This document shows, piece after piece, positions 14,858-39,945 of a DNA stretch of 64,000 bases. The position numbers and the translations under genes were made by a program. Source of the DNA: Lachnospira multipara LB2003. Lineage in GTDB: Bacteria; Bacillota; Clostridia; Lachnospirales; Lachnospiraceae. How positions within the stretch are numbered: position 1 is the first letter of the stretch; every line of letters starts with the position of its first letter. Below the pieces are notes generated by a model, which had not been told where the DNA came from, searched no databases, and saw nothing but the letters and a program-made list of their open reading frames with translations. The DNA lies in NCBI RefSeq assembly GCF_000702205.1, contig NZ_JNKW01000004.1:1-64000 (forward strand), written 5' to 3'.

Positions 14858-15240
14858 TCCCCTCATGAAACGGGAGAAAAACATGAGGGGGAAAATTATA
14901 TTTAAAAATAAAGGCTTACTTTATTTTTAAAACGTATTTAGTTATCCCCTAATCTCCTCTTTTTAATATATCCGGGGCTTATAGGGATGCCCCGGATCCT
15001 TAGGGGAGAGGGAGGCAATGAATGCTTAGGGGGACATTCATTGCTATATTCTATGTAGATCAAAGCGAGGGAGGGTGCTAAGACCTACATCTATCAAGCC
15101 TTTTTAGACTAAATAGCTAGTTAGTTGCCAAGCGACAGATTGTCTAATCAACGTTTGGGGACAAGAACAATTACTGCCGCTTATGCATTTTTAAAAATAT
15201 TACTCAGTCTTTAATCCGCATATATTCTGATTAAAGCTTT
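14858..15240 (-). ncRNA. Candidate structured non-coding RNA with C-rich hairpin loops
   Basis: No open reading frame is convincing here, yet successive strong hairpins are present. Stems: 15209-15216 with 15229-15236; 15053-15058 with 15085-15090; 15015-15024 with 15035-15044; 14971-14978 with 14989-14996 nested in 14945-14952 with 15000-15007; 14901-14913 with 14919-14931; 14859-14867 with 14882-14890. Read on the minus strand, four loops expose C-rich motifs (ACCCTCCCTC, TCCCCCTAAG, ATCCCTATAA, TTCTCCCG). The last hairpin is followed by ATTATTT and may end the RNA. It could be an independent RNA or the 3' UTR of the CAP-protein gene. No known class (tmRNA, RNase P, SRP, 6S) was recognised. 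Confidence 0.5.
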
Positions 15241-15350: not shown

Positions 15351-16352
15351 CTAATTCATAAATATTGCTACCCAATATCTCTTACCATCTGAGCCATCTG
15401 CTACACCTATACCTACTCTTGTATATGATGAGCTTACCATACAGTTGTAGTGTGCCTGTGAATTATGCCATCCTGATACAATTCCCTGTGGTGTTCTCTG
15501 ACCCTTGCCCATTACTTCACCAAAGCTTCCATACTGTCCGTAGTAATAGCAGATTGTCTTAGCTTCTTTGTATGTATTTTCTGCTACTTCGAATGGTCTT
15601 CTATGATGTCCACCTGCTACTAAGAAGAATGTGCTATCTGCATTCTCTGCTGCTCTATGACTTGCCATTACTGTAAGAGTTGGATCGTATGCTACGCTTG
15701 CAACTCCTACGTTAGCTCTTTCTTGATTAATTAAGTCATATACCTGTGATATCTCTGAAGCATAAATGCCTGCATTACTTTGTGCCATTGCATAGTAATC
15801 ATCATCTGTTTTTCCTGTTATTGATACTTCGCCTGTGTACTGTGCTTCCTCTACTACTGGCTCTGGAGCTGGTTCTGGTGCTGGTTCTGGCTCTGGTGCT
15901 GGTTGTGCTTCCTGTGCCTGTGGTGCTTCATATGCTGGCTGTGGTGCTTCATATGCTGGCTGTGGTGCTTCATATGCTGGTGCTTGTGTTTCCTGTGTTT
16001 GTGTGCTTACTGTTGGAGCTTGTGTTGTTTCTTCGATTGTTGGTGCCTGTGTTGTTTCTTCCTTACGTTCACTAGCAATTCCTGTTGAGCCTACGATTGC
16101 TCCATATCCAAGATTTGTCTCTGGCTCTGTGCTAAATGTTACATTACCAGTTCCTGTTGCTAGTTCACTCTCACCTGCTACCTTTTCAGAAATAGAGCCA
16201 TCCATTGCTCCTGCAGCGGCTACATTAATTGATACGCTGTCCTTAGAATTGTTGCTTCCTGCAAACTTACTTGCGAATACGGCACCTGTGCCGATAATTG
16301 CAATACCTGTGAATAAAGATATCATTTTAATTTTTCCTCTAGAATTTCCCAT
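15351..16352 (-). CDS. Secreted or anchored CAP (SCP/PR-1) domain protein
   Basis: This 333-residue extracytoplasmic protein has an N-terminal hydrophobic segment (about residues 10-30), a Ser/Thr/Gly-rich stretch and a Pro/Glu/Ala-rich linker with three PAYEAPQ repeats followed by PEPAPEP. The C-terminal CAP domain starts at about residue 195 (LINQERANVGVASVAYDPTLTVMASHRA split here for length) and runs to the end. The start at 16352 has a well-spaced GGGAGAG site; the upstream ATG at 16367 does not. A GEMM-I riboswitch and terminator lie upstream, so expression should respond to c-di-GMP. CAP proteins in clostridia are often envelope- or spore-associated; the function here is unknown. Confidence 0.88.
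   Translation of the reverse strand: MGNSRGKIKMISLFTGIAIIGTGAVFASKFAGSNNSKDSVSINVAAAGAMDGSISEKVAGESELATGTGNVTFSTEPETNLGYGAIVGSTGIASERKEETTQAPTIEETTQAPTVSTQTQETQAPAYEAPQPAYEAPQPAYEAPQAQEAQPAPEPEPAPEPAPEPVVEEAQYTGEVSITGKTDDDYYAMAQSNAGIYASEISQVYDLINQERANVGVASVAYDPTLTVMASHRAAENADSTFFLVAGGHHRRPFEVAENTYKEAKTICYYYGQYGSFGEVMGKGQRTPQGIVSGWHNSQAHYNCMVSSSYTRVGIGVADGSDGKRYWVAIFMN
15919..15980 (-). repeat. 21-bp tandem repeat, three copies, in the CAP protein linker
   Basis: Three nearly identical 21-bp units (15919-15939, 15940-15960, 15961-15980) encode repeated PAYEAPQ. Flanking codons extend the Pro-rich linker. Confidence 0.9.
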
Positions 16353-16554
16353 AATAAACTCTCCCATTCTCTCCTAACCTAATACAAAAGTTACTTATGA
16401 GTCCTAGATAAACACATGTATGTGATAATATTAAGTTTTGCTTATCGGACTTCCATGTCTATTAGACCTCCATGTCTTTACATCCTGTAAAATCCCTACC
16501 TCCTTGTAAGGATTAGAAAACTTATACCCTACTCTTTAACCTTAGCTTTTGATG
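16353..16554 (-). other. Leader segment between riboswitch terminator and CAP gene
   Basis: This 200-nt untranslated stretch has no convincing reading frame. On the minus strand it contains a 13-bp direct repeat, AGACATGGAGGTC then AGACATGGAAGTC, about 17 nt apart (near 16447-16476), and an AAGGAGG-like run inside a short ATCCTTAC/GTAGGGAT hairpin that is not followed by a start codon. The role is unknown. Confidence 0.4.
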
Positions 16555-16583
16555 AATAAAAAAAGCACCCTTGCCGGGTGCTT
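16555..16583 (-). terminator. Intrinsic terminator of the riboswitch expression platform
   Basis: The stem AAGCACCC/GGGTGCTT with a 5-nt loop is followed on the minus strand by seven T. It lies about 55 nt downstream of the GEMM-I aptamer and upstream of the CAP gene, the expected place for a c-di-GMP-controlled terminator. Confidence 0.93.
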
Positions 16584-16634: not shown

Positions 16635-16731
16635 TTAAATAAAGTGCAACCGGCTGCCATTCCTTTGTTAAAAGGAGAAGACCCTTTGGCTTTGCGTCCC
16701 TAGCTTTCGCTAGGTTTGCTAAAGTATTTAG
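16635..16731 (-). promoter_or_regulatory. Cyclic di-GMP-I (GEMM) riboswitch
   Basis: The minus strand contains the class hallmarks in order. These are GCAAACC, a CTAGC-GAAA-GCTAG hairpin with GNRA tetraloop, the invariant GACGCAAAGCC, then AAGGGTC, a second hairpin, and GGCAGCCGGTTGC. The ends pair as AAATA/TATTT (16637-16641 with 16725-16729). A terminator follows. It should couple transcription of the CAP protein gene to c-di-GMP. Two EAL proteins, possible degraders of the ligand, are encoded in this window. Confidence 0.93.
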
Positions 16732-16747
16732 TTCTCTATCTGACTTT

Positions 16748-16775
16748 ATTATATCATCTATATATTATAAGTAAA
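16748..16775 (-). promoter_or_regulatory. Probable promoter of the riboswitch transcript
   Basis: A -10 TATAAT (plus 16748-16753) lies on the minus strand with a weak -35 TTTACT (16770-16775) 16 bp upstream. It starts transcription about 10 nt before the aptamer. Confidence 0.6.
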
Positions 16776-38400: not shown

Positions 38401-39945
38401 CTATTTATTCTTTTTAGGCTTAAAAATTGTAAATCTTAATGCTAATAATATTATTACAACTATTATAGCTGCTACTGGTAATACTATCTGCTTTATATCT
38501 TTTTCTACTTTAGTTGTTTCTGCTTTGTTACTAGACTCCTCTATTTGTGTTTCTTCATAGTCATAGTCTTCATATACTGTTCGTCCTGTTGTTATTTCTG
38601 TTCCTTTTCTTATGCCCTTCTGGTCTTTAGTTGCTTCTAGTTCTATCTCGTAATTCTCAACTGTCTGTGTTGGTAATACATAGTCTGTATTATATGTATA
38701 GCCTGTCTTGGCATATGTTACTGTTGTATAACCTGGTGTTACTGGTGTTGGCTCTGTTATTGTCTCTGTCTTTACTGAATCTGCATCTCCTTCTGGTAGT
38801 AAATCTTTATCGTATGTCATTACTTCATCTCTTACAAATTCATCGATGTTATTATAGCCTACTGCAAATGTCCAATTCATTACTTCTCCAGCTATGCCTT
38901 TACAATATGCTCTTCTATCTGTGTTATCTTCAAAAAATCTTATATATCCCTTTACGTCATTTCCTGTTATTACGCCTTCATTAACTGTTCCATATGGATA
39001 TAGGATATACATTCCTACTAATCCACCACTATGTACGTATCCATGATCTGAATCATATCCCTTTATATTCACTCTACAGTCCTGTATATCAAAATATCCT
39101 GCTGATAGTATTCCTGCTAAGAAATTCTCATCTTTTACTTCTTTATCTGTATCTATTGATATTACTGTTACGTCTATATCGCAATTTGTGATTTTTCCAT
39201 TTCCATAGCCTACTACGCCGCCGATTCCATTCATTACTGCACTTGTTTCTAGCTTATCTGTTCCATAAATCAAGCAATTTTCTATTTCTGCTTTATCTGC
39301 TATTCCTGCTAATATTCCTACCATCATATGGTCTGATGATGTTAGTTCTACCTTGGCACCTACTATTTTTAGGTTAGTTACTTTTCCTGTTAAATTACCA
39401 AAAAAGCCTGCTGCCTTAGTATCATATTTCTTATAATTGCCATCATATGTTACTGTTGTTATATCTGTTGCTGTGCTTACCTTTAAGTTATATAGTGTAT
39501 ATCCATTTCCTTCAAATTCGCCGTTAAAATTCCATGGCTTCCAATCTATTCCACTTAAATCTAAATCTGATAGTAGGGCATACTTTCCTGTTTCATTGCT
39601 TGCTACTCTTTGTAATTCCCCTACTGTTCTTATTACTGTATATCCTTTACTTTCTGCCTCTTCTTTGGTCATTGGCTTAAAGTCAGTTGTCTTATCTGTA
39701 TACTTTACCTGCTTTCCTCTACATCTCTTGTTACTTGATGCTATGTCTTTTGGTCCATCTATATTAGTTGTTTTTTTATCTATATTGACTTTACTATCAC
39801 ACACTTGATGTAAGCTAGTTTCTTTATTTATCATCTTACTTACTTCATCTGGTAATTTATAAATTGCTGTTACTGACACTGCTAGTAATGCTAATGTACA
39901 TGCTATTGCTTTTGCGTTTTCTTTTAATTTTGTTTGTTTTTTCAT
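38401..39945 (-). CDS. GLUG-like surface protein with C-terminal membrane anchor
   Basis: This 514-residue protein has a signal peptide-like N-terminus (hydrophobic residues about 12-28). The Cys-containing linker is followed by a beta-helix region (about 110-370) with GLUG-like repeats such as GFFGNLTGKVTNLKIVGA, VGILAGIADKAEIENCLIYG, IGGVVGYGNGKITNCDIDV and SGGLVGMY. A Thr/Glu-rich stalk and a C-terminal helix (about 487-506) followed by KPKKNK complete it. It is probably displayed outside the membrane; no LPXTG motif is seen. The ligand is unknown. Confidence 0.78.
   Translation of the reverse strand: MKKQTKLKENAKAIACTLALLAVSVTAIYKLPDEVSKMINKETSLHQVCDSKVNIDKKTTNIDGPKDIASSNKRCRGKQVKYTDKTTDFKPMTKEEAESKGYTVIRTVGELQRVASNETGKYALLSDLDLSGIDWKPWNFNGEFEGNGYTLYNLKVSTATDITTVTYDGNYKKYDTKAAGFFGNLTGKVTNLKIVGAKVELTSSDHMMVGILAGIADKAEIENCLIYGTDKLETSAVMNGIGGVVGYGNGKITNCDIDVTVISIDTDKEVKDENFLAGILSAGYFDIQDCRVNIKGYDSDHGYVHSGGLVGMYILYPYGTVNEGVITGNDVKGYIRFFEDNTDRRAYCKGIAGEVMNWTFAVGYNNIDEFVRDEVMTYDKDLLPEGDADSVKTETITEPTPVTPGYTTVTYAKTGYTYNTDYVLPTQTVENYEIELEATKDQKGIRKGTEITTGRTVYEDYDYEETQIEESSNKAETTKVEKDIKQIVLPVAAIIVVIILLALRFTIFKPKKNK

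Follow-up and report, generated by a model that had tools for sequence, protein, structure and literature searches.

A C-rich multi-hairpin RNA, probably the 3' UTR of a c-di-GMP riboswitch-controlled CAP-domain mRNA in Lachnospira multipara, and its predicted pairing with the ribosome-binding region of the same gene

The window, i.e., the whole stretch of DNA analyzed here, comprises 64,000 nucleotides of contig NZ_JNKW01000004.1 of Lachnospira multipara LB2003, and the features of the CAP locus described below are located on its minus strand. The locus begins with a promoter-like site (TTTACT-16-TATAAT with a TG before the -10 element; 16748..16775), which was identified in a consensus scan and ends 18 nt upstream of a c-di-GMP-I riboswitch. 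Since the scan returned four promoter-like sites in the stretch and 7.4 are expected from shuffled sequences, this site alone is weak evidence. The riboswitch aptamer (16642..16730; RF01051, 65.6 bits) is followed by an attenuator-like terminator hairpin (16563..16583; consensus scan), and a leader of about 200 nt separates this terminator from a CAP-domain gene (15351..16352), which was taken from the list of open reading frames (ORFs), assigned by a Pfam match (PF00188) and given the start that agrees with similar genes of sister species. Between the stop of the CAP gene (15351) and the start of an ACT-domain gene (14729), no ORF of at least 60 amino acids is listed. About 490 nt, most of them structured, extend from the CAP stop to the end of the last hairpin, H8. 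Beyond H8 lie a palindrome (14777-14746), the ACT-domain gene, and genes that resemble homoserine dehydrogenase and aspartate kinase, the latter two names being read from the translations with no search behind them. The palindrome, located directly before the ACT gene, is perfect over 15 bp with ACA-N2-TGT half sites and resembles an operator of that ACT/HTH-type protein; ACA..TGT repeats also precede the ACT gene in other members of the genus (L008-L027, by eye).

The original prediction had described six or more strong hairpins with C-rich loops in the gene-free stretch at 14858-15240, and the folding analysis bears this out. The minus strand from 15350 to 14850 reaches a predicted folding energy of -146.2 kcal/mol, compared with -101.5 +/- 6.0 kcal/mol in 100 shuffles (z -7.4), and is more structured than the plus strand of the same region (z -4.4). 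For the core of the region (minus strand, 15215-14856), the corresponding values are -117.9 and -75.4 +/- 4.6 (60 shuffles). All six C-rich motifs quoted at the outset are present on the minus strand where they had been placed, and C residues are indeed preferentially exposed: 30.5 of the 75 C of the core are unpaired vs. 8.6 of the 62 G. The core exhibits 8.66 unpaired CCC triplets vs. 4.43 +/- 1.46 in shuffles, the highest of which reached 8.12. This excess is weaker in the sister species G007 (12.04 vs. 7.41 +/- 2.15, highest shuffle 13.74). The feature is larger than first proposed, with upstream hairpins to 15186 and matching leader elements at 16359-16514. Rfam 15, searched over the C-rich region at gathering and loose thresholds, returned no family; the best candidate, SpF43, reached 29.9 bits where 70 would have been required.

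In 5' to 3' order, the structured region starts with hairpin H2 (15127..15186), which contains UUGUCCCCAAACGUUGAU and is nearly invariant in the alignment of three species. The consensus fold then places H3 at 15091..15117, H4 (loop CACCCUCCCUCGC) at 15053..15090 and H5 (loop GUCCCCCUAAGC) at 15015..15044, with covarying stems in both H4 and H5. H5 is separated from H6 (14970..14997; loop AUCCCUAUAA) by the C-rich linker L56 (14999..15014; CUCCCUCUCCCCUAAG), which is the best complement of the CAP start as judged by duplex energies. Folding indicates that L56 can alternatively pair within the 3' region with a purine stretch, GAGGAGAUUAGGGGAU (14944..14959), and a switch between two partners is therefore conceivable. 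The A/T-rich hairpin H7 (14901..14931) occupies the position of the first of two tandem hairpins found in the remaining genus. The last hairpin, H8 or hairpin B (14859..14890), was delimited by alignment and covariation; it is of the terminator type and carries the anti-Shine-Dalgarno (anti-SD) loop UUUUUCUCCCGUUU. Its T run is good in the sister species and broken in the window, where the terminator scan does not list H8.

A DNA search of 61 genomes, including the genome of origin, returned matches in six of them: the genome itself, two of the same genus (G007 and G002), and three with 23-35 nt only. The whole region is present in G007 (68% identity) and G002 (67%) with the gene order retained, and H2-H8 recur in both with altered stems and kept C-rich loops. 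The letters of H2 and H5 are nearly invariant in the three-species alignment, and 10 of 127 consensus pairs show a kept change on both sides. As G007 and G002 are close to each other, the three species amount to roughly one comparison, and the long 3' region is present in two lineages only. H2-H6 and L56 are additions of the clade formed by the window species, G007 and G002. In the remaining genus, the last hairpin alone is kept downstream of the riboswitch-CAP gene (ACCCTCACATTCCTCTCCCGTTGTGTGAGGGT and similar sequences), followed by a T-rich stretch. A model of H4-H6, applied to 22 genomes of the genus and, with stricter filters, to 397 of the family, recovered the three sister species and scored 27.8 bits in G006; two further matches, in G021 (19.8 bits) and G394 (24.4 bits), were judged to be chance by eye. 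The element in G006 (L197, G006:C213, 1501-1602, minus strand) combines a CCUAAG-loop hairpin with a G/C-rich one through the linker UCCCUCCCCC, an arrangement like H5-L56-H6, and it is located between two genes that resemble MATE-type efflux genes by eye. It may be another representative of this kind of RNA. The related loci also contain long palindromic, MITE-like intergenic elements (L011, L014, L015, L017, L020, L021 and L032; e.g., TATAGGAAATTGAATTTCCTATA in L020), one of which is inserted in the CAP leader of G021.

The H8 hairpin with its loop UCUCCCGUU was found in 12 of 22 genomes of the genus within the stretches examined, which in the other ten genomes were the surroundings of the ACT gene and the riboswitch loci (G020 has no ACT match, and G003 offers 231 nt upstream). 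TCTCCCGTT is identical in all 12 H8 sequences. An alignment of ten sequences, nine of them distinct, from which the two sisters with their longer loops were omitted, shows that all nine stem pairs hold in every row and that five of them have changed on both sides. Covariation among relatives is observed both in G007 and G002 and for H8 in these ten sequences, and a constant loop core is found in 12 genomes on top of changing stems. The hairpin B covariance model gave 35 matches in 31 of 299 family genomes, and of the 20 loci examined, two (in G013 and G000) carry the loop, while 17, by eye, are other hairpins that lack it. None of the 17 model matches examined outside the genus has the loop; the 18th, L181, is similar, with CUCCCGU in a hairpin loop that apparently lies within a reading frame (by eye).

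The ribosome-binding region of the CAP gene, UUAGGAGAGAAUGGGAGAG (16359..16377), is complementary to both L56 and the H8 loop according to duplex prediction. The pairing of CTCTCCC with GGGAGAG at the CAP gene start, proposed earlier, exists as letters, and complementarity of the UCCC type is conserved. Most riboswitch-controlled CAP starts carry AACGGGAGA, AACGGGGGA or AAUGGGAGA, i.e., the complement of the H8 loop. A start motif, [AU]ACGGGRG or AAUGGGRG, which was defined only after the CAP starts had been seen, occurs at 10 of the 11 CAP loci that have UCCCGUU in the terminal loop (by eye; window, G007, G002, G001, G017, G019, G011, G012, G012b and G004), all of which share ancestry. It is present at only 2 of 569 non-CAP gene starts (6 of 573 overall, four of the six being CAP starts). 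The single riboswitch-CAP locus without the loop, in G021, also lacks the start motif, and the CAP paralogue G012b, whose own hairpin has a different loop, still has AUCCCGUU within this loop, together with AACGGGAGAG at the gene start. Complementarity between a 3' motif and the gene's own SD region is common to these loci with the exception of G008, which keeps the loop and has the start AAACAGGGAA (-7.7 kcal/mol, a value equaled by 381 of 519 null starts).

The null gene starts used for comparison belong to the window itself or to one of 80 related loci and are, for G007 and other species, not their own genes; they include four CAP starts in the sets used for H8 energies (519) and run lengths (573) and three in the L56 set. 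By duplex energy, the H8 loop is only moderately unusual at the other ten loci, with 10-39 of 519 null starts equally strong. Its longest pairing run is matched by 7-59 of 573 null starts at eight loci and is ordinary at G004 (93 of 573) and G012b (168 of 573), with 356 of 573 at G008. There is no preference of the loop for its own species, and the window leader pairs better with the loop of G007. The linker L56 gives stronger duplexes with the CAP start of its own gene. In the window, 16 interrupted pairs yield -19.8 kcal/mol, a value reached by none of 53 window starts and 12 of 519 others, and in G007, 17 interrupted pairs yield -23.0 kcal/mol, reached by none of 53 and none of 519. Each leader also forms a stronger duplex with the L56 of its own species than with that of the sister, the differences being 1.7 and 0.9 kcal/mol. 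H2, H4, H5 and H6 do not favor the window CAP start, which ranks 26th, 14th, 18th and 6th, respectively, among 58 starts.

Another feature, which had no place in the original prediction, is an array of hairpins with GGA in their loops, which the same three species carry in the leader, downstream of the terminator and ahead of the CAP start. In the window it comprises ACAAGGAGGU, ACAGGAUGU, ACAUGGAGGU and ACAUGGAAGU; in G007 the stems differ and the loops are similar. Motif and fold define hairpin a (16491..16514; ACAAGGAGGU), a CsrA-type site with the loop AAGGAG whose stem letters are replaced in G007 while the loop is retained, hairpin b (16477..16491; UUUACAGGAUGUAAA), which comes close to the CsrA SELEX consensus RUACARGGAUGU (PMC7652899), and hairpin c (16464..16477; AGAC-AUGGAG-GUCU). 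Hairpin d (16448..16459; GAC-AUGGAA-GUC) is a computed motif match with a 3-bp stem by eye. Over the 64 kb of the window, the pattern ACANGGANGU has four matches against 1.14 expected, and three of the four are located in the CAP leader. Tandem copies of this pattern, at most 28 nt apart, are restricted to the CAP leader in G000, G002 and G007, with no match in the reversed control. Tandem copies were also found elsewhere in G013 (one), G018 (five) and G006 (one), and the other 16 of the 22 genomes have none and show some reversed-control matches. A looser count of GGA hairpins in the 300 nt after the riboswitch gave three sites in the window, a number only modestly above expectation and reached by 5.5% of 200 shuffles (G007, 4.5%; G002, 1.0%); two other CAP leaders did equally well (G021, 0%; G012b, 2.5%). 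More weight attaches to the stricter consensus pattern as evidence for a predicted CsrA-type array.

CsrA is encoded in 19 of the 22 genomes of the genus. GGA hairpin loops matching the consensus and a csrA gene in the genome, two marks of a CsrA-regulated or CsrA-titrating leader, are both present. In the genome of the window species (G000), fliW overlaps csrA, and both belong to a fliW-csrA-flaG-fliD cluster. Within a 14-kb stretch of this flagellar cluster, ACANGGANGU occurs twice (0.28 expected), at the flaG start and about 45 nt before the fliD start, which fits CsrA control of these two genes. The corresponding locus (L234, G000:C3, 5430-5520 and 5960-6010, minus strand) shows a fliD leader with the GGA hairpins AAACAAGGAUGUUU and AUGCAAGGAUGCAU (by eye) and a flaG start with ACAUGGAGGU. 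Judged from these sites, the fliD leader and the flaG start are likely CsrA targets beside fliW-csrA.

In all likelihood the C-rich region belongs to the CAP gene as its 3' UTR and is not an independent sRNA. A single promoter-like site was found at the locus, ahead of the riboswitch; on the minus strand, the consensus scan detected neither a promoter-like nor a terminator-like site that would separate the C-rich RNA from the CAP gene, and G007 and G002 share the gene order. Of the two origins considered in the original prediction, a trans-acting RNA or a processed 3' UTR of the CAP gene under riboswitch control, the latter is therefore better supported, and the earlier interpretation as a whole is partly supported. 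The proposed link of the RNA to c-di-GMP depends on the RF01051 aptamer located upstream of the CAP gene.

The explanation favored here, to which we assign a probability just short of even, is that the 3' UTR of the CAP mRNA pairs with its own ribosome-binding site by means of the H8 loop and L56, and that its leader presents a predicted array of CsrA sites. In this model, the mRNA of the CAP surface protein would begin at the c-di-GMP-I riboswitch and run into the C-rich 3' UTR. The H8 loop UCUCCCGUU, together with L56 in the clade of the window species, would contact the ribosome-binding site in cis or between two copies of the mRNA. Such pairing would presumably block ribosome loading and might create a cleavage site for RNase III, by analogy with icaR of S. 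aureus. The riboswitch would set how often the CAP mRNA is made, through c-di-GMP-dependent termination, while the 3' UTR would set its translation or lifetime. Binding of CsrA to the GGA array of the leader could add the CsrA/FliW state as a further input. What the sequences show is the structure with its conservation and gene order, the complementarity and the consensus array; that the regions are cotranscribed, pair in the cell and bind CsrA, and in which direction each effect goes, is inferred. Three observations run counter to a purely cis-acting role: the CAP locus of G008 lacks the match; in G013 the riboswitch and the hairpin persist although no CAP gene was matched; and in G018, a genome of 78% completeness, the hairpin persists with a match to neither CAP nor the riboswitch. 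These cases leave room for a role in trans or for a hairpin that is kept merely as a terminator.

A trans-acting sRNA, derived from the CAP 3' UTR or from a promoter of its own, whose UCCC loops would cover the SD sequences of other mRNAs in an RsaE-like manner, is a less probable explanation that still deserves some weight. The presence of several different C-rich loops, the nearly invariant letters of H2 and H5 and the retention of H8 in G013 and G018 would suit such an RNA, as would the CAP paralogues of G002 (L207, G002:C11) and G007 (L208, G007:C5), which carry UGGGAGAG and AUGGGAGAG at their starts. These paralogues, for which no Rfam match was found in L207 and L208, are possible trans targets of H8. 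The original prediction had suggested pairing before the GLUG-like gene at about 39950 (here the gene at 39945), and this pairing exists as letters. Among 58 window starts, this gene ranks first for H4 and third for H8, it is one of only two non-CAP starts among 569 that bear the motif, and its orthologue in G012 pairs with the genus-type loop in another register (-17.1 kcal/mol). However, among the 12 orthologues compared, AAUGGGAGG marks the start in the window species only; it is absent from the remaining 11, which comprise all relatives but that of G013. For this lack of a conserved motif, the gene was set aside as a trans target. The gene itself (38401-39945) encodes a secreted- or membrane-looking protein of 514 amino acids without a Pfam match at E 0.01, which has relatives of 39-60% identity in 12 other genomes of the genus. 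A wider search also speaks against trans action. The sequence AACGGGRGA occurs before ATG 82 times in the 22 genomes, compared with 64 times in the reversed control; ten of the 82 matches are the opposite strand of the hairpin and five are CAP starts, leaving 67, and by eye the 30 loci that were translated share no common gene set except CAP. The consensus scan, moreover, detected no promoter-like site before the RNA.

Still lower probabilities are attached to two explanations in which pairing with the start codon region plays no part or a secondary one. According to one of them, the region would be an ordinary structured 3' UTR of tandem terminator-type hairpins, with loops that are C-rich for stability or for binding of a protein and with a complementarity to the start that is a by-product of C-rich facing G-rich sequence. 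H7 and H8 do occupy the place of two such hairpins in the remaining genus, several null starts match the CAP start in energy or run length, and the hairpins of G013 and G018 persist without the gene. We nevertheless consider this explanation improbable, as a constant loop core sits on a varying stem and the start motif is so rare beyond CAP genes (2 of 569). Similarly improbable is the notion that the 5' GGA array pairs loop-to-loop with the 3' C-rich array, in which case the 3' UTR would mainly antagonize CsrA binding to the leader. GGA is complementary to UCC, and the tight tandem CsrA consensus at the CAP leader co-occurs with H4-H6 in the same three species. This co-occurrence has only one evolutionary origin, however, the numbers of sites in the two arrays do not match, own-species pairs are not consistently preferred (window, -32.9 own vs. 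-28.3 cross; G007, -50.3 own vs. -59.3 cross), and the CAP leaders of G021 and G012b hold three GGA hairpins by the looser count without any C-rich array.

Returning to pairing between the CAP 3' UTR and its own start, the leader array allows an extension that we regard as rather unlikely: the c-di-GMP-gated mRNA might act as a CsrA sponge, in which the GGA array would take up CsrA once the riboswitch permits transcription, and pairing by the C-rich 3' UTR would set both the amount of CsrA held and the amount of CAP protein made. If so, it would represent a c-di-GMP-driven RNA antagonist of CsrA beside FliW in a Gram-positive bacterium. A 2020 review states that joint action of FliW and sRNAs on CsrA remains undetermined in any species (PMC7652899); the present locus would be a related candidate for such joint action of FliW and RNA, the RNA being the leader of an mRNA and not an sRNA. 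More generally, a single mRNA would join a c-di-GMP riboswitch, an array of CsrA sites and 5'-3' UTR pairing, which are usually studied separately, and would tie the state of a second messenger to CsrA/FliW control in a member of the Lachnospiraceae. It would also extend pairing of the icaR type to a hairpin loop that is kept across much of a genus. No paper on this RNA or on this combination of elements was found in the open-access literature searched.

The closest known counterpart is icaR of S. aureus, also Gram-positive, in which a UCCCCUG motif of the 3' UTR binds the SD region of its own transcript, creating a substrate for RNase III (PMC3868564). The CAP mRNA likewise has a C-rich 3' UTR motif complementary to its own SD region. 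Unlike in icaR, the motif is located in the loop of a terminal hairpin, a longer second complement is provided by L56, the pairing is predicted, and the gene is that of a riboswitch-controlled CAP protein with CsrA-type sites in its leader. The leader resembles that of C. jejuni flaA, a dual-function, CsrA-titrating mRNA, in having hairpins with GGA loops in a host with CsrA and FliW (PMC4894983); flaA is described there with two GGA hexaloops, compared with four in the CAP leader of the window and more in G007 by eye. In contrast to flaA, the CAP leader lies behind a c-di-GMP riboswitch and does not belong to a flagellin gene, and titration is hypothetical. Unpaired UCCC in a structured RNA is shared with RsaE and RNAIII, which PMC3868564 lists as UCCC-motif sRNAs; here, however, no promoter of its own was seen, no conserved trans target was found among those tested and there is no Rfam match. 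The arrangement of an aptamer followed by a terminator is that of other c-di-GMP-I riboswitches (RF01051). As far as can be read from the sequence, the parts are thus of known kinds, while their combination, and a conserved terminal-hairpin loop as a putative anti-SD element, appear to be new.
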